IMG/VR virus record: IMGVR_UViG_3300019776_000016
Span: 1-25,127 of that record
Direction: 5' to 3' (one strand)
DNA length: 25,127 bases
Source: a virus
Shown here: one piece after another, positions 8,520 to 23,918 of the stretch
Numbering within the stretch: the stretch's first letter is position 1
Layout: each line of letters begins with the position of its first letter
Notes under the pieces: model-generated
The model's database searches: none
What the model was told of the DNA's origin: nothing
What the model saw: the letters and a program-made list of their open reading frames with translations, nothing else
Position numbers and translations under genes: made by a program

Positions 8520-8780
8520 TCAATATCCAGCCTTTGTTCTAGCTTCTACCTCGTATGGGCTGTTGATATAGCCATACCGCAGCAGGTAGTAAAAGATTTT
8601 TACAGTCCACATCACGGCACCATCCCGTTCAATCTGAGCCACATGCACAGATTCATGCAAAGCTAATGGCGCATTGTTTTCTTCACCGGGGCGGCAATAC
8701 ACTGTCTTCCACGGCATAGTTACAGCCAAAGCGTTTGCAGCTTTTAAAAACCACAGCACAAAAAACGGAGCGGTCTTCAT
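8520..8780 (-). CDS. membrane-anchored HExxH metallopeptidase-like protein
   Basis: An 86-aa protein with a hydrophobic N-terminal signal or anchor (APFFVLWFLKAANALAVTMP). This is followed by a zinc-peptidase motif LHESVHVAQIERDG (His42, Glu43, His46). Near the C-terminus is YEVEAR, whose Glu77 or Glu79 could be the third ligand. Short proteins of the type HE-xx-HxxQ...YExEA occur in many phages, but I know of no proven substrate. Its place, coupled to the fibre gene (ATGA) and one base upstream of the 3TM holin gene, puts it in the lysis cassette. A role in envelope or peptidoglycan-associated protein cleavage is therefore conceivable. The residues for catalysis are present but the protein is very small. 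Confidence 0.75.
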   Translation of the reverse strand: MKTAPFFVLWFLKAANALAVTMPWKTVYCRPGEENNAPLALHESVHVAQIERDGAVMWTVKIFYYLLRYGYINSPYEVEARTKAGY

Positions 8781-10456
8781 GCTTTGCTTTCGAGTTGCGC
8801 TACGCGATTACTCAGGGTTTTAATGATCTGTGTTTGTTCTTTGATGGCATTAACCAAAACTGCAATCATGGACTGGTCGTTGAACCGCAGCTTCTCAGGG
8901 TCTTCGTTATCCACGATAACTGGTTTAGCACCTTCTTCAGCCAGCACTTCTTGTGCTTTAAAGCCATACCGTACCGGCCCGTGACCTTCTGTAGCCTCAC
9001 GGTTAATTTTGTACCGATATGCCGTAGGCTTAAGTTTGCAAACAAAATCCAATCCATGCGGAACTGGCGCAAAGTCAGTCTTGTCCCGAGCGTCAGATAC
9101 AACCGTCCATGCTACTTGTATATAAGCATTGGTAGCATAAGTCGACCCCATGCAAATTCGGTTGTCTTGCGTAGTTGGGTCAAATACAGGGGAATAAACG
9201 GAGTAATAGCTATTGTATGGAGCTATCGCGATGTTGTTGCTACCAGTAGTAACGTTGTAAAGCGCTCTAAATCCTACGGCGGTATTATTCACACCTGTTG
9301 TGCAAAAAAGAAGAGTGCGGCTACCAATTGCGGTATTTATATTGCCTGTAGTATTAAATTTAAGTGCGCTTTCTCCAATAGCTGTGTTTAAGTACCCTGT
9401 TGTGTTGCCGTTTAAAGCATCTTGTCCGATAGCTACATTAGCGTCCCCAGATGTATTTAATGTAAGCGCGTAATCCCCAATACCTATATTTTGATAGCCT
9501 GTGGTATTTGTGTAAAGGGCTTCCCGACCAATAGCAATATTGTTATACCCCGAAGAGTTACTGGTAAGTGCAGTCTTTCCAATACCAATATTAAAATTAC
9601 CTGTACTGTTTAAGGAAAGCGCAAACGATCCAATTCCAATATTTGAGTTACCTGTTGTATTGCTACTCAACGCAACACCAATAGCTATGTTTTGAGTACC
9701 TGTAGTGTTGGCAGCTAATGCATCGGTTCCAACCGCCGTGTTTTGAACACCTGTAGTATTGGAAACCAGCGCGTTGTATCCAAAAGCCACGCTTTGATAC
9801 CCTGTGGTGTTAGCAGTCAGCGCACTACTTCCAATAGCCGTATTCTGATACCCTGTGGTGTTAGCAGCTAATGCGTTTGTTCCAACCGCTGTGTTAGCAG
9901 AAGCTGTAGTAGTAACGGCGAGGGCATTTTGACCAATCGCAAGGTTGTTACTTCCAGTGGTATTAGAAGCAAGAGCGCTTTTCCCGTAAACTAAGTTACT
10001 AGCAACATTCCCACTGCCAATACCCATGTTAAACGGAGTAGATGCAATTTTTACGTAATCAGTACCATTCCAAGCAATTACAGCTTTTTCTCCGTCAACT
10101 AGCGTAATACCCGTGGTCGGTGTAGTTCCTCGAACGGTTAGCAAAAACCCACCCGTGCCGTTGTTGTTGATAATGTAATGGCGGCTTGAGGCTGGCAGGT
10201 TTAGATTACGCGCAGCAGTCTTGGCTCCGCTGATATTTAGGATGGCGTACTGTGCCGTGGTGGATGTGATGCCTGTTGCAGCATTGGTTCCGCTAGTATT
10301 GGTCAGGGTTACATCAGTTGTCGTGATGGTGATAGACAACCCACCCGCAATGGCAATATCCAAATAGGAGGTAAGGCCGTTGTTTACCAGATCACCCCAT
10401 GTTCCAGACTCTGTGCCAGTTGTGGGTGTTGCTAGGCTAAGAAGAGTAGATGGCAT
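8777..10456 (-). CDS. beta-roll tail fibre with C-terminal S74 intramolecular chaperone
   Basis: A 559-aa fibre. Residues 1-140 are a Thr/Gly-rich virion-attachment part (LSLATPTTGTESGTWGDLVN). Residues 165-415 are fifteen tandem repeats of about 17 residues, consensus NTTGxxNxAIGxxAL, as in left-handed beta-roll head domains of trimeric adhesins. The last 106 residues form a Peptidase_S74 chaperone. It begins at Ser454 in SDARDKTDF with Lys459 five residues on, the spacing of the known Ser-Lys catalytic pair. A PTAYRYK strand, GFKAQEVL and a C-terminal coiled coil (IIKTLSNRVAQLE) follow. The chaperone should trimerise the fibre and cleave itself off before Ser454. It is coupled (ATGA) to the HExxH gene of the lysis cassette. 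Confidence 0.9.
   Translation of the reverse strand: MPSTLLSLATPTTGTESGTWGDLVNNGLTSYLDIAIAGGLSITITTTDVTLTNTSGTNAATGITSTTAQYAILNISGAKTAARNLNLPASSRHYIINNNGTGGFLLTVRGTTPTTGITLVDGEKAVIAWNGTDYVKIASTPFNMGIGSGNVASNLVYGKSALASNTTGSNNLAIGQNALAVTTTASANTAVGTNALAANTTGYQNTAIGSSALTANTTGYQSVAFGYNALVSNTTGVQNTAVGTDALAANTTGTQNIAIGVALSSNTTGNSNIGIGSFALSLNSTGNFNIGIGKTALTSNSSGYNNIAIGREALYTNTTGYQNIGIGDYALTLNTSGDANVAIGQDALNGNTTGYLNTAIGESALKFNTTGNINTAIGSRTLLFCTTGVNNTAVGFRALYNVTTGSNNIAIAPYNSYYSVYSPVFDPTTQDNRICMGSTYATNAYIQVAWTVVSDARDKTDFAPVPHGLDFVCKLKPTAYRYKINREATEGHGPVRYGFKAQEVLAEEGAKPVIVDNEDPEKLRFNDQSMIAVLVNAIKEQTQIIKTLSNRVAQLESKA
9212..9964. repeat. fifteen tandem 51-bp repeats encoding a beta-roll shaft
   Basis: Repeats encode NTTGxxNxAIGxxALxx units at residues 165-415 of the fibre. 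All full units are 17 codons except unit 6 (16 codons, NTTGTQNIAIGVALSS). The last one ends early after AIAPYN. Codons for NTTG and NxAIG are strongly conserved, while positions after TTG and after IG vary. Confidence 0.88.
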
Positions 10457-12468: not shown

Positions 12469-14469
12469 TTATGGGCCTGTCGGGAATGTTACTGCTGGGG
12501 GTGTAAAGGTTGCCGTGTACCGTGCCACGCCCTTGGTGATACGAATATCGTCTAGGTATCCATTCAATCCATTAGCATTGCTACGGTCAGCGCCCACAAG
12601 CAAGGCATTAGTTTGGTTGAAGTTTGTGCTGTCAGTCGCTGTGGCCTCTAGGTTTCCACCAATAAACAATCGGGTTGAAGTGCCCGAGCGGGTAACAGTA
12701 ACGAACGTCCAAGTCGTTGCAGCAATTGTCGTGGTGCTAGTCAAAATTGCCGTAGACGTTACCGTAAACACCAATTGGTTTGACGAGTTAACTTGCAACA
12801 ACCATCCTGTAGCCGCTGCGCCCTTACAAATCAGCGAATGCAAAACGCCAGCGGCATTGCGGTACACCCACATTTCAATGGTGTAGTCGCCGGTTCCAAG
12901 TTGCAAATTGACAGCATCGGCCACTGTCTGATAGGCCGTAGCAGTGTAACTAGCACTCTCTGCTCCGTACTTTTTAACCTGTGTTGTCACCGCCGTTGTG
13001 CCGGTGCTGGATTGAGCATTTCCGTTGTTGCTCAAATCATAGAACGCACCAGTATCCCCCCGCACCAGCAGAGAGGTATTGGTGATCGCGGTCAGCGGTG
13101 TAGTTGATGGCGTGAAGTTGGCGGTGTATACGGCTGTGCCTTTAACGATCCGAGCGTTGCTTACATAACCATTTAACAGTGATGTTCCATTGCTTTGTGA
13201 ACCAATAGCAAATACGTTTGTTGAATCATTTACTGTGCCAGATTGCACATTTGAACCTAATGATGAACCGTTAATATAAACTTTTACAGTACCGGAAATT
13301 CTGCATACAGCGATATGGAACCATGTAGTTAATGGTACTGTGTACGTATAAGTAACAAAAGCCCCGTTGACATGAATCAATATGTCATTTCCAGTTGAAC
13401 CAGGAATTTCAACTTGAAAATTACCAGCACCGCTAAAGTTACCTAAAGAAAAAAGACGGGCATTAATTGGTTTTGTAATTAAATAAACCCAAGCTTCGGC
13501 GGTAAAATCCCCAGTTCCAAATTGAAATACTGCATTATTTGGTGTTGTGAGATATTGCGTTGTTCCATTAAACAACACACTCCCCGGATAAGTATTCCCA
13601 AACGGACTCAAACCTGAGTACACCGGAGAGCCTGTAGCAGTCACCGTTAGAGCGTTTGGCCCTTGGTCTACAAAGGTGCTGTTGTTGAACATACCCTGCC
13701 CAGTGCCGGTGATGAGCAGGCTGGTGTTTGTGATGGCTGTTAGCGGGGCTGTTGGAGGGGTAAACCCTGTGGTATAGACTGCGGTGCCTTTGACAATTCG
13801 GGCATTAGAAATAAAACCAGGGAAGTAAGCAAATGCAGCTTGGCTTTCTTCATACCCAATATACAAAGCCCTCGCACCGTTGGCTAAAGTGCTTGGGATT
13901 GATGTTGTTGTTCCGTTGGATGTTCCATTAACCCAAACAGTACCATTGACGCCGATGCGGGTTACGGCAACGTGATACCAAGTGTTGAGCGATAGTGTTG
14001 TTGACCCTGTAATATTTGCCGTTGGAGCGCCGCCGCCATTTGGAACTGAACTAAAACTGGCGCAAACTTTCAATGAAGAATTAACGTATAAAGTGTATTG
14101 CGGCCAAGATACCGCATTTTTTCCGTCTTTATTTATAACGTTAGCGCCGCTATTTGTCGCTGCACCCGGCGTAGCTGTAAGGTAAATCCATGCCTCAAGC
14201 GTAAAGTCGCTTGTTCCCATGTTGAGCGCAGCATTATCTGGGGCTATCAAGTACCCCGTACTTCCATTCAACCACTCACTTCCGCCCACTCCACCGCTGA
14301 ACGGTGTATTTAGGCTTGGGTTAACCACCCCGTTGCGCGTGATGGCAAAGTTATTGGTACTGCCATCCTGAAAGGTCAGGTTGTTTTCAAAGTTCGTGAG
14401 CAGGCTGACACTGCTCCAGTACGGATCGCCCGAGCTAACTACACTACCTGTTTTAGATGCTGCAAACAT
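12469..14469 (-). CDS. tail fibre/receptor-binding protein with three LamG lectin modules
   Basis: A 666-aa protein made of three concanavalin A-like (LamG/Laminin_G_3) modules at about residues 24-253, 254-469 and 470-655. Each has a strand with FTLEAWIYL, FTAEAWVYL or YTIEMWVYR, a NTWYHVAVTR-like strand (165-171, 382-390, 586-594), and ends in an ARIVKGTAVYT / DIRITKGVARYT block. A PLTAITNTSLL linker is repeated after modules 1 and 2. Such domains bind glycans, so it probably recognises host surface polysaccharide. The start is ATG 14469, which overlaps the previous stop (TAATG). A frame extending to 14589 is a read into the neighbour. A tail fibre assembly-like gene follows at once. Confidence 0.88.
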   Translation of the reverse strand: MFAASKTGSVVSSGDPYWSSVSLLTNFENNLTFQDGSTNNFAITRNGVVNPSLNTPFSGGVGGSEWLNGSTGYLIAPDNAALNMGTSDFTLEAWIYLTATPGAATNSGANVINKDGKNAVSWPQYTLYVNSSLKVCASFSSVPNGGGAPTANITGSTTLSLNTWYHVAVTRIGVNGTVWVNGTSNGTTTSIPSTLANGARALYIGYEESQAAFAYFPGFISNARIVKGTAVYTTGFTPPTAPLTAITNTSLLITGTGQGMFNNSTFVDQGPNALTVTATGSPVYSGLSPFGNTYPGSVLFNGTTQYLTTPNNAVFQFGTGDFTAEAWVYLITKPINARLFSLGNFSGAGNFQVEIPGSTGNDILIHVNGAFVTYTYTVPLTTWFHIAVCRISGTVKVYINGSSLGSNVQSGTVNDSTNVFAIGSQSNGTSLLNGYVSNARIVKGTAVYTANFTPSTTPLTAITNTSLLVRGDTGAFYDLSNNGNAQSSTGTTAVTTQVKKYGAESASYTATAYQTVADAVNLQLGTGDYTIEMWVYRNAAGVLHSLICKGAAATGWLLQVNSSNQLVFTVTSTAILTSTTTIAATTWTFVTVTRSGTSTRLFIGGNLEATATDSTNFNQTNALLVGADRSNANGLNGYLDDIRITKGVARYTATFTPPAVTFPTGP

Positions 14470-15347
14470 TATGGTACGTACGCCTGTCCTAAAACGCTGC
14501 CGTACCAGTTGGTCCCATCTGAGAAGAATGAGAACACATCCTGCCTGCTGGCGGTGCTTGTGATCGTCGGTGCTGTGCCAGCAGGCCACTTAACCGTAGT
14601 CCAAGTAACCGTGAAGCTACCTGCGCCGGTTTTGAGCATGATGATAAATGATTTACCAGATACCGCAGTAGGCATGGTGATCGTCGGGCTACCAGTCAGG
14701 GTAAGTATCTGTACCGTACCGTTGGTCAAAGCAATTGTAATTGCCGTGCCAGTGTTGGCCGTAAATGGCGTCTCTGTATAGTTTGTAACCGTTGGGTTAG
14801 TCAGTGTTTTGTTGGTAAGGGTGGCACTACCATCTACCGTTACTAAGCCACCCGTGGTGTTCACTGCATTGTTAATTGCGGTGACTACACCAGTTCCAGT
14901 GGTTGTAGTCGTAGGGGCCGCTCCTGCACCACCGCCGAGCATGATGGCGCTGGCAGTCAATACGCCGCTGGAAGCCCATGCAGTCCCACTTGAGAAGTAG
15001 GGAATACCGCCGCTAGTTCCTGCCACAGTAAGCGCTGGGGTTGAGGTAGCCGTAGCCACGCTAATGATGCCGCCCGTGAACGATACGCTTGTAACTGTTC
15101 CTGTGGCTGTGGAAGATAGAGTACCTGCGGCAAAAGACAGTCCAGAACCTACGGTAACATTGCTAAAGCCACCAGAGCCATTGCCGTAAAAAATTGCTGT
15201 GCCAGTGGTTGCTGGGGCATAGTCTGTACCCGAAGTGGCTACCGCAATATTGCTTCCAGAGCCTGTTCCTTTAAGCAAACCAGTCAAAGGCAGGCTAAGT
15301 GAGGTAAGCCCTGTGATTGTTCCTGTACCATTTATCTGAACTGGCAT
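14469..15347 (-). CDS. Gly/Thr/Ser-rich tail fibre or head fibre protein
   Basis: A 292-aa protein with the composition of a trimeric phage fibre. It has a PVQINGTGTITGLTSLSLPL start, then LLKGTGSGSNIAVATSGTDY and many T/S/G-rich beta segments (ATGTVTSVSFTGG, TSTPALTVAGTSGGIPYFSS). A DGSATLTNKTLTNPTV motif, common in phage fibres, follows. The C-terminal 100 residues look like a compact beta-sandwich (GKSFIIMLKTGAGSFTVTWT, TASRQDVFSFFSDGTNWYG). Its likely job is receptor contact or linkage at the tail or head surface. Which surface cannot be told from sequence. ATG 15347 follows a TAAGGAAATGAC site. The stop TAA overlaps the start of the LamG gene (TAATG). Confidence 0.78.
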   Translation of the reverse strand: MPVQINGTGTITGLTSLSLPLTGLLKGTGSGSNIAVATSGTDYAPATTGTAIFYGNGSGGFSNVTVGSGLSFAAGTLSSTATGTVTSVSFTGGIISVATATSTPALTVAGTSGGIPYFSSGTAWASSGVLTASAIMLGGGAGAAPTTTTTGTGVVTAINNAVNTTGGLVTVDGSATLTNKTLTNPTVTNYTETPFTANTGTAITIALTNGTVQILTLTGSPTITMPTAVSGKSFIIMLKTGAGSFTVTWTTVKWPAGTAPTITSTASRQDVFSFFSDGTNWYGSVLGQAYVP

Positions 15348-21359: not shown

Positions 21360-21842
21360 TTAGGCCGAAACAGGGTTGGAGATGGCAGTAGTTCCGCTCA
21401 CAGCTTTTTGTGCGTAATTCACAGTCACGATGAACCGGCCAGCGCCCAGCGTACCAGTACCAACTACGTTGCGGATAAACACTGTGGTATCTGCCGAGGT
21501 AGAGGTTTGCCATGCAAGTTGCGTAGCGGCGGTTGCTACGCCTTGGAATCGGCCACCAGCCGTAGTAGCCACAGCGGCAGTCAACTCAGCGCCGCCAGAG
21601 GTGGTGCCGGTAGAGATAGTCGTAGTACCGACAGTGGCGGCAACAACTTGGTCAATGATGATGTTGATGATCTGCGCGCCTGCCGGAAGAATCATCGCGG
21701 CAACATCGTAGTTGCCTTGCACAGTACCAGCCAAGTTACCCGAGTCATACGACTGAGTAAGAACTACCAGACCCGCATTGCGACCCGGATTGTTCAATAC
21801 GGTGCCAACGCGCAGGGGGCCAGAAAAGGATGAAAAGCTCAT
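21360..21842 (-). CDS. virion structural protein, decoration-like
   Basis: A 160-aa protein rich in Gly, Thr, Ala and Val, with alternating hydrophobic/polar residues typical of beta-strands. Recognisable stretches are SGNLAGTVQGNYDVAAMILP and the central IINIIIDQVVAATVG. It has no signal peptide, Cys or membrane segment. This type of protein is regular in the capsid-proximal region of aquatic phages and is likely a head decoration or capsid-associated protein; the assignment rests on position and composition. It is the first structural gene after the endonuclease cassette. Its start ATG 21842 has a TAAGGAAAA ribosome binding site. The following gap holds a GC hairpin that could reduce read-through. 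Confidence 0.7.
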   Translation of the reverse strand: MSFSSFSGPLRVGTVLNNPGRNAGLVVLTQSYDSGNLAGTVQGNYDVAAMILPAGAQIINIIIDQVVAATVGTTTISTGTTSGGAELTAAVATTAGGRFQGVATAATQLAWQTSTSADTTVFIRNVVGTGTLGAGRFIVTVNYAQKAVSGTTAISNPVSA

Positions 21843-21866
21843 GATTTTTCCTTACATACAAGATAA

Positions 21867-21911
21867 GCGTATCAATCGGTATGTCGTCTAGCCGGGACTA
21901 GTTTGATACGC
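21867..21911. repeat. 9-bp perfect inverted repeat in the gap after the endonuclease gene
   Basis: GCGTATCAA at 21867-21875 is the exact complement of TTGATACGC at 21903-21911, with 27 bases between them. It fills the centre of the 101-bp gap between the endonuclease stop and the next gene's start. No T tract follows on the minus strand, so it is not a canonical intrinsic terminator. It may be an operator, an RNA hairpin, or a trace of the insertion boundary; the sequence does not decide. The leader ends with AAGGAA before ATG 21842. Confidence 0.5.
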
Positions 21912-21943
21912 CGGAAAGCCCGGAGTAAGTGCAATATATCACG

Positions 21944-22861
21944 TTATTTGCTTATGCGCAATTGTTTTTCATCCCCTCTACGGCAAGTAATACAGGTGCC
22001 TTTTGTAGCGCGTAGGCTAATATGACCGCGATCACAAGGGATGCCGGTAAAGTATTGTTTGGCACCTGTAGCTTTGGCTTCGGAACGGGAGCGGGGATAG
22101 TGTTTGTACTCGTCAGGAATCACAACCGGCGTTGCATCTGCGTCAGCATAAAAGAACTGCCAGCCTGAAAACTTTCCTTTGGTCACAAGTTTGTTTGTTT
22201 TGCAAAGACGCACCAACATTGGATACGGAGTGTTTAACTCAACTCCCGCTTCGGAGACTCCGACAAAATCTTTGCGAGTTCCATCGTGTAACAGCGCATA
22301 AATTGGTCGGCGTAGCTTTTGCTTTGTCGCTTCTGTGTGCGTTTTGCCAAGAAAGTGTTGGTTGCCCAAAGTGCGCTGGCGAATAGCTTCTTTCTCTGCA
22401 TCAGTTCGTTTATATCCGAGTGCGTTTTGATTTCCTTTTAAAGCCTCTGACATTTTTGATCTGGTTTGTTCATTTGGGATAAATTTTCCGCCACGACCAT
22501 CAGCTAATACTTTGTGCATAGAAATGGACATTTTTAACTTGGACGCTTCTGTGTGCGGAATTCCGAGACGGGGGACATACGCATCAACGTTAATGTTGTA
22601 GCAGTCTGGTTGCCCAACGCACTTCACCAGATAAGTGTTCTCTACGTCAAAAGTTGCTACCCCTTCTGGGATTTCCTCAATGATTTCAAAGACAAACATC
22701 TCTGCACCGTACTTGTTCCATGCAGCCTGTAAACGTGGATTCTTATGTGCGCCACGTTTTAAGTCGTACTTGTGTTGCCACTCTCTACGCGCAAAAGATT
22801 CGGCACTTCCAATGTAGTAATTTCCATTGGACATGTTGGTGATTCGATAGATAACAGCCAT
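21944..22861 (-). CDS. free-standing GIY-YIG homing endonuclease
   Basis: A 305-aa selfish DNA endonuclease. Residues 3-92 form the GIY-YIG nuclease domain: VIYRIT, NYYIGSA (YIG at 16-18), a candidate catalytic Arg at 25/26 with His30, a KYG, a candidate metal-binding Glu74 and the closing YNIN. Two NUMOD3-type DNA-binding motifs follow (GIPHTEASKLKMS near 100-112 and GKTHTEATKQKLR near 172-184). After them comes a NUMOD1/IENR-like segment ending GKFSGWQFFY (229-238). The C-terminus has a Cys276-His280 and Cys290-Cys293 cluster resembling the zinc-binding tail seen on phage HNH enzymes. It would cut DNA of relatives lacking the insert so that repair copies the gene. It is flanked by complete genes, so it appears intergenic rather than intronic. 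It has its own promoter and AAGGAG. All key residues are present, so it looks intact. Confidence 0.92.
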   Translation of the reverse strand: MAVIYRITNMSNGNYYIGSAESFARREWQHKYDLKRGAHKNPRLQAAWNKYGAEMFVFEIIEEIPEGVATFDVENTYLVKCVGQPDCYNINVDAYVPRLGIPHTEASKLKMSISMHKVLADGRGGKFIPNEQTRSKMSEALKGNQNALGYKRTDAEKEAIRQRTLGNQHFLGKTHTEATKQKLRRPIYALLHDGTRKDFVGVSEAGVELNTPYPMLVRLCKTNKLVTKGKFSGWQFFYADADATPVVIPDEYKHYPRSRSEAKATGAKQYFTGIPCDRGHISLRATKGTCITCRRGDEKQLRISK

Positions 22862-22888
22862 GTAAAGCTCCTTGTGGTAATGACTGCT

Positions 22889-22917
22889 ACTATACCAAAG
22901 AACAATTGATTGGTCAA
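22889..22917 (-). promoter_or_regulatory. sigma70-type promoter of the homing endonuclease gene
   Basis: On the minus strand a -35 box TTGACC (22917-22912) is followed by exactly 17 bases and then a -10 box TATAGT (22894-22889). Each box differs from the consensus at one position. The predicted start of transcription is near 22882. It leaves a leader of about 20 nt that contains a strong AAGGAG site (22873-22868), six bases before ATG 22861. This is the only near-consensus promoter I found between genes in the window. Confidence 0.85.
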
Positions 22918-22949: not shown

Positions 22950-22969
22950 AAAAAAGCCCCCGAAGGGGC
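22950..22969 (-). terminator. rho-independent terminator after the capsid gene
   Basis: On the minus strand this reads GCCCC-TTCG-GGGGC followed at once by six T. The five-base GC stem with a TTCG tetraloop and the T tract is a textbook intrinsic terminator. It lies 31 nt beyond the capsid stop codon and 33 nt before the -35 box of the homing endonuclease promoter, separating the two transcription units. Confidence 0.93.
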
Positions 22970-23000
22970 AGAAACTAGGGATAAACCCTTGTTTTAGGGC

Positions 23001-23918
23001 TTAGGACGAACCGGGACTGCCAAAAATGCCGAGCGAATCGCTGACGCCGAAGGAATAGCGCTCCCGCGCCTTATACCGCTGATTCCCGGTATCAAAGTCA
23101 CCATCCATCGACGTACTCAGCGGCGTCCGTACAAAGTGCTTCAGACCGTTCGGCACGTCAGTGGTCAGGAACCATGCGTTCGTATCGGTCAAGAAGTGGT
23201 TGACGGTATAGCCACCAGGAATCGAACCGTTGCTCTTCAGTGCGTTGATGTCGTTATCGGTTGTGCCGACACGCAACGAAGTCTCAAGCAGTCGGGTTGC
23301 GACGAACATGAGCGAAGGGGGAACGATCAGCTTCTTGGGCTTTGCAGCGATCAGCAGGCCGCGCTCATCCGTCCATGCAGCGATCTGGATCACAGCCGCT
23401 TCAAGGGACGTTTCGTTCAGGTCTGCGCCAGTGGTTGGGCGATTGCTGTTGGTGCCGCCGTTGACCAGAGGGTGGTCAGTAGCGAACAACGTTTTGCCGT
23501 CACCGTAGGTGGGATTACCTGCACCGACAAAGCCGGTGTTCAGGATGGCAGCAGCTTTAATCTGCTTGGTGTATGCCATAGCCCGTGCGAGGGACTTGGT
23601 ATATCGTGCAGACAGGCTGTCGTACAGGTTGTCTTCCATTGCCTCTTCGGTAATGGAAAAGCCCATAGCGATAGTCTCGTGGTTGTAACGAGCGGTCCAT
23701 GCTTCTTGCGCATTGTCATACGCGATGGCTTGACCTTCGTTCTTCACCGGAGCAGCGTTAAAGCCTGCCAGTTTGGTTTCTTCTTCGAAAGAACGCTCAG
23801 ACGATTCGGTTTCATAAATCTCTTTATGCTCTTCACCGTAACGAGCGTACTCCATGCCGAACAAAGCGTTCAGGCCGGGGAGAAGTTCTTTAAGTAGTTG
23901 TGCGCGTGAAATTGCCAT
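23001..23918 (-). CDS. major capsid protein, Mu gpT-like
   Basis: A 305-aa protein matching my knowledge of the Mu-like major head subunit gpT family found in many aquatic phages. The N-terminus is a helix (RAQLLKELLPGLNALFG). It is followed by an acidic/charged stretch (EEHKEIYETESSERSFEEE) and a conserved capsid-fold core with EAWTARYNHETIAMGFSITE and NLYDSLSARYTKSLARAM. A DERGL-IAAKPKKLIVPPSL segment lies in the second half. The length is normal for the family. Start ATG 23918 has a clear AAGGAG seven bases upstream. A strong intrinsic terminator begins about 30 nt after the stop, so the head genes form a transcript ending here, which fits high capsid demand. Confidence 0.9.
   Translation of the reverse strand: MAISRAQLLKELLPGLNALFGMEYARYGEEHKEIYETESSERSFEEETKLAGFNAAPVKNEGQAIAYDNAQEAWTARYNHETIAMGFSITEEAMEDNLYDSLSARYTKSLARAMAYTKQIKAAAILNTGFVGAGNPTYGDGKTLFATDHPLVNGGTNSNRPTTGADLNETSLEAAVIQIAAWTDERGLLIAAKPKKLIVPPSLMFVATRLLETSLRVGTTDNDINALKSNGSIPGGYTVNHFLTDTNAWFLTTDVPNGLKHFVRTPLSTSMDGDFDTGNQRYKARERYSFGVSDSLGIFGSPGSS

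Follow-up and report, generated by a model that had tools for sequence, protein, structure and literature searches.

The GIY-YIG endonuclease gene found between the major capsid protein (MCP) gene and a putative capsid cement gene of this phage is probably a free-standing, site-specific homing endonuclease cassette, as judged by sequence comparison, with cleavage and homing expected from its protein family and its distribution. With somewhat less confidence, we favour a wider reading in two parts. Unrelated homing genes at this one locus would have convergently come to supply the -35 box of the virion gene behind them, often with the TG of the -10 region through their stop codon (a 'promoter lock'). 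The cement gene of HTVC023P-type pelagiphages and their freshwater relatives would be controlled by an undescribed, widespread class of four-helix mRNA leader.

The window, that is, the whole stretch of DNA analysed, is positions 1-25,127 of IMG/VR virus record IMGVR_UViG_3300019776_000016, from a water-borne phage, and has its virion genes on the minus strand. By eye, the minus strand also encodes a repetitive tail-fibre-like protein whose C-terminal region resembles an intramolecular chaperone (8777-10456) and a large protein in which concanavalin/LamG-like segments recur (12469-14589). The features around the endonuclease gene are as follows.

23001..23918, minus strand: MCP gene, Mu gpT-like fold family (Pfam PF10124, E 8e-10; PHROG 371, E 6e-22)
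22950..22976, minus strand: intrinsic terminator of the MCP unit with a UUCG loop (sequence scan; UUCG loop in 35/45 GIY loci)
22889..22917, minus strand: predicted sigma70-like promoter of the endonuclease gene, TTGACC-17-TATAGT (consensus match; position kept in homologues)
22868..22873, minus strand: Shine-Dalgarno AAGGAG of the endonuclease gene (sequence)
21944..22861, minus strand: intact GIY-YIG endonuclease ORF of 305 aa, ATG at 22861, end at 21944 (sequence, Pfam, PHROG, alignments), comprising a catalytic domain (1-92), NUMOD3, an HTH-like region and a C-terminal Zn-finger-like CxxGH..CxxC
21360..21842, minus strand: 160-aa gene, product likely a capsid cement (decoration) protein (placed like the 'cement protein' of phage DSL-LC04, with a similar N-terminus)

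The initial annotation had described the promoter, the AAGGAG and the intact GIY-YIG gene, located directly after the capsid terminator, as a self-contained cassette inside the late virion operon, and all four elements were found at the positions given above. The product of the 160-aa gene has no Pfam match; it is likely to be the cement protein, an assignment taken from one annotated relative, DSL-LC04. Relatives were collected by a scan with the MCP, which gave 80 loci, and a scan with the endonuclease, which gave 46 loci.

The protein has the domains expected of a GIY-YIG homing endonuclease. It matches GIY-YIG (PF01541, E 3.8e-6, above the cut-off) and NUMOD3 (2.7e-10) in Pfam as well as phage homing-endonuclease families in PHROG, and its PDB matches are I-TevI catalytic-domain structures only (E 4e-10). 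Y5, Y16, R26, H30, H39, E74 and N89 are invariant among 17 homologues, and the catalytic residues aligned with I-TevI are intact. DNA-binding modules follow the catalytic domain, namely NUMOD3 and a PHROG 1081 / endonuclease VII-like Zn-finger region at 253-300. The protein also matches NCBIfam TIGR01453 (E 1.4e-29), a family named for group I intron-encoded endonucleases, which would suit an origin within such an intron; however, the flanking MCP and cement ORFs are both intact and the window has no intron or other Rfam match, so that we give this origin a negligible probability.

The insertion site is fixed, and its occupation varies. Every close GIY homologue for which the flank is present (38/38) immediately follows an MCP gene of this phage group. 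Of the 67 MCP relatives that had sufficient sequence, picked irrespective of nuclease, 40 had no recognised insert, 9 had the GIY family of the window, 6 a Zn-finger HNH, 4 another GIY type, 2 an HNH and 6 an acidic protein. Thus, 27/67 have an insert, drawn from five gene types of which four are nucleases, and occupied and empty alleles occur at one site. Identity of the nuclease is weakly correlated with that of the MCP (Mantel r 0.22, p 0.005). Four nuclease types at one site together with this weak coupling are as a homing hot spot would predict, although fast evolution of the nuclease could also weaken the correlation. The fixed position in all close homologues, the intact reading frame and a correlation above zero would fit a domesticated gene that is inherited vertically and kept for another function, such as excluding related phages or regulating the capsid. 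The patchy distribution (40/67 without insert), the unrelated nucleases found in its place and the weak coupling to MCP identity speak against domestication, and we consider it unlikely; homing and the exclusion of rival phages are compatible, not mutually exclusive. The small acidic protein at the same site (L013, L028, L046, L047, L049 and L067) lies ~430 nt from the leader of the cement gene where this was measured.

The comparison of loci shows that the cassette leaves the MCP terminator upstream and brings a predicted sigma70-like promoter and a ribosome-binding site of its own. In nearly all GIY loci, a terminator lies between the MCP gene and the GIY gene. In occupied loci (e.g. L087 and L110), a short inverted repeat of the form AATCAAGCACTTA.. 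recurs between the MCP stop codon and the terminator, and the distance between these two is longer when the site is occupied (median 27 nt vs 12 nt in nuclease-free loci). This repeat or the longer gap is possibly a co-converted flank or a target.

Both promoters, that of the endonuclease gene and that of the cement gene, were called as consensus matches. The former consists of TTGACC (22917-22912), a 17-nt spacer and TATAGT (22894-22889), with 5/6 matches in each box and TG one base before the -10. Taken from the window alone, it is not beyond chance (1 site vs 4.6 in shuffles of the region; p ~0.03 for the 80-nt upstream region). This would be expected if the gene were a promoter-less passenger that relies on read-through transcription of the capsid unit, with the TTGACC-TATAGT a chance match. 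In divergent homologues (~45-60% aa identity) of one subgroup, however, TTGACN-16/18-TANNNT is kept at a fixed distance from the gene, its -10 ending 25-28 nt before the ATG in most and with a per-locus p of 0.005-0.035 for many. Such a promoter was found in 20/48 GIY loci vs 3/40 loci without nuclease. The conserved spacing and the intervening terminator make read-through of a passenger gene very unlikely. We regard the endonuclease promoter as convincing through the comparison with homologues, while in the window alone it is no better than chance. The count also supports the proposal of the initial annotation that promoter and gene move as one insert, and the same promoter was mostly absent from relatives lacking the endonuclease, where its presence would have contradicted that proposal. 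Some GIY relatives have a weaker -35 of their own; the closest one, L082, has TTGCGC. A second subgroup (L099-L113), whose -35 is mostly poor, has an inverted repeat that encloses the -10 and extends to the start codon; it is significant in L101, L102, L105, L108, L110 and L113 (p 0.003-0.023). At the gene of the window, which belongs to the first subgroup, a hairpin hiding the ribosome-binding site was not found (p 0.28).

The opposite end of the insert adjoins a second predicted promoter. The cement gene has a sigma70-like TTGnnn-17-TATATT that ends ~10 nt before its leader, and the ORF of the endonuclease ends inside it.

21956..21961, minus strand: -35 box TTGCGC of the cement promoter, within the last endonuclease codons (sequence comparison)
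21933..21938, minus strand: -10 box TATATT of the cement promoter, preceded by TGA (sequence comparison)

The end of the ORF reads CAA TTG CGC ATA AGC AAA TAA, followed by CGTGATATATT. A set of 36 nuclease loci of three unrelated nuclease types, whose ORFs end close to the leader, was used for counting the -35. TTG stands at the -35 (16-18 spacing) in 35/36 of these loci vs 0-0.19 at other offsets; the loci are mutually related, so that counts overstate their independence, though the three unrelated types agree. The -35 lies inside the nuclease ORF in 29/36 loci and outside it in 7/36. In 19/36 the -10 begins immediately after the stop codon, which in 14 of them is TGA and gives the TG of an extended -10. 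By sequence, a promoter element of the next gene therefore falls within the nuclease ORF.

Conservation of the protein, with no embedded promoter, might also place TTG at the ends of these ORFs, since a single reading frame (nTT Gnn) accounts for 23/26 of the TTGs, and V/I/L followed by D/A is often encoded there. That explanation is hard to reconcile with three unrelated nuclease types, two reading frames and variable residues. Moreover, TTG was found at the exact spacing in 26/29 ORFs vs 8.8 expected from synonymous codons, the maximum in simulation being 18 (2000 runs), and the same TTG is present where no ORF overlaps, in 9/10 other loci and 24/35 nuclease-free loci. We regard protein conservation as highly improbable. 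Because the codon choice at the ORF end departs from the synonymous expectation, the embedded promoter appears to be under selection.

In nuclease-free relatives, the MCP terminator is followed directly by the leader of the cement gene, mostly without a promoter of the endonuclease type in between, and the -35 TTG is often in the terminator loop. GIY loci mostly have UUCG-type terminators without TTG; by a strict count, TTG is in the terminator loop in 0/45 GIY loci vs 13/36 nuclease-free loci. Thus, the insert parts the terminator from the promoter, and its own end replaces the -35. These results may imply the following course of events: Nuclease-free alleles have the same leader and cement gene behind the MCP terminator, often with the -35 TTG in or near the terminator. 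During mixed infection, the nuclease would cut such alleles in the MCP-cement region, and repair would copy the gene in. In the occupied alleles, the last codons serve as the -35, and in many relatives the stop codon abuts or belongs to an extended -10.

This arrangement bears on statements of the initial annotation. It had read the sigma70-type promoter as a sign of expression early or throughout infection, which is unsupported: the adjacent cement gene has a sigma70-like promoter too, so that the promoter class is uninformative on timing here. A place inside a late operon is doubtful, as the MCP unit ends at a terminator and a separate promoter is predicted for the cement gene. The term 'self-contained' holds in that promoter and gene form an insert, and fails in that the 3' end of the ORF holds the -35 of the next gene; this embedded promoter half and the structured leader had been overlooked.

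The leader comprises four mutually interlocked helices, arranged as a b d a' d' c b' c'.

21849..21923, minus strand: cement mRNA leader, from helix a to the Shine-Dalgarno (covariation; covariance model)
21923-21919/21896-21892, minus strand: helix a
21911-21903/21875-21867, minus strand: helix b
21901-21898/21891-21888, minus strand: helix d
21884-21879/21859-21854, minus strand: helix c
21853-21849, minus strand: cement Shine-Dalgarno AAGGA, after helix c

In a plain MAFFT alignment of 81 leaders, 88.9% of cells pair vs 27-45% with the partners slid, and there are 346 double changes vs 101 in shuffles. The leaders were first gathered by a descriptor that demanded helices a, b and c, and helix d was not searched for; the slide and shuffle controls and helix d are therefore the cleaner evidence. 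The middle pair of helix d is UA in 39, AU in 28, CG in 8 and GC in 5 of the 81 leaders. When the model was fitted to b and d only, helices a and c still showed 89.9% pairing, with 171 double changes vs 47. The leader of the window, a training member, scores 80.5 bits (E 1e-18). Outside the training set, the model matches DSL-LC04 (E 1e-8) and Pelagibacter phage HTVC023P (E 6e-8). It finds one copy per locus at this place in the phage group, as well as in HTVC023P-type pelagiphages, with matches in 35/80 HTVC023P-type contigs. A score-limited descriptor found the leader in 45/70 HTVC023P-type sequences vs 0/900 shuffled windows, whereas without a score limit over 2.4 kb it was too permissive, with matches in 18/25 shuffles. 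HTVC027P, by inspection and descriptor, and 023Pt_psg01 also fit. The leader was looked for and not found in Alcaligenes and Caulobacter phages, and a match in a cyanobacterial phage (L128) was rejected as a differently placed hairpin.

Neither in the window nor in 18 loci did the leader match an Rfam family at gathering; matches were weak and sub-threshold only. A hammerhead, suggested by CTGANGA-like letters, was rejected because the T covaries with its helix d partner and is not a fixed core. The pistol ribozyme has the helix order a b a' c b' c', and the leader of T4 gene 32 has a pseudoknot near its ribosome-binding site. The cement leader resembles the former in helix order and the latter in the position of its pseudoknot. 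Unlike pistol, however, it has an extra helix d (3 bp) around a', and no covariance match to the pistol ribozyme was obtained at gathering or at E<=10. Helix c overlaps the Shine-Dalgarno or is <=3 nt from it in 72/80 and 38/45 leaders, which suggests that the leader helps to control translation of the cement gene. Since cement genes of several types stand behind it, a recognition site for one cement protein is less likely; we infer that control through a shared factor, the ribosome or 5' stabilisation is the likelier role.

The window gene resembles the T4 seg genes and I-TevI in its GIY-YIG core with I-TevI residues and its place beside essential virion or replication genes. Unlike the seg genes, its family occupies one fixed site behind the MCP gene and has its own sigma70-like promoter; several T4 seg/mob genes are transcribed by read-through (PMC2988022). 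In T4, promoters of downstream genes lie whole inside some nuclease ORFs, which has been argued to favour retention (PMC2988022). Here the downstream promoter is split, the ORF end giving only the -35 and the stop codon often the TG, and several unrelated nucleases do alike. Within the literature searched, this split form, the stop codon sharing the -10 region and the convergence at one locus are new. In T4 I-TevI, segB and Aeh1 mobE, a hairpin hides the ribosome-binding site and only transcripts from an internal promoter escape (PMC2988022). The inverted repeats of the second subgroup resemble it, with the 3' arm over the start region, and the window gene differs in this respect.

Homing genes have been described at boundaries of exchange and near essential genes, with swapping of nuclease domains (PMC10448857); the main text of that paper does not contain the word 'promoter', and embedded promoters are not treated there. 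HNH-like proteins occur at the same site behind the MCP gene in L032, L048, L052, L059, L063 and L076. Their N-terminal Zn-finger-like domain resembles the C-terminal domain of the GIY-YIG protein of the window (56-64% identity in most). As in the systems of that paper, this looks as though nuclease modules had been exchanged on a common DNA-binding module.

If the proposed arrangement is true, the endonuclease gene would be a selfish gene that is hard to lose. As a virion gene has its -35 within the insert, a simple deletion would strip that gene of its promoter and damage cement expression, favouring retention; nuclease-free alleles would stay viable because their -35 lies elsewhere. The persistence of homing genes in compact phage genomes, a long-standing question, could thereby be tested with single synonymous changes. 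Irrespective of this arrangement, the cement leader is a strongly covarying, previously uncatalogued knotted RNA common to very abundant ocean phages.
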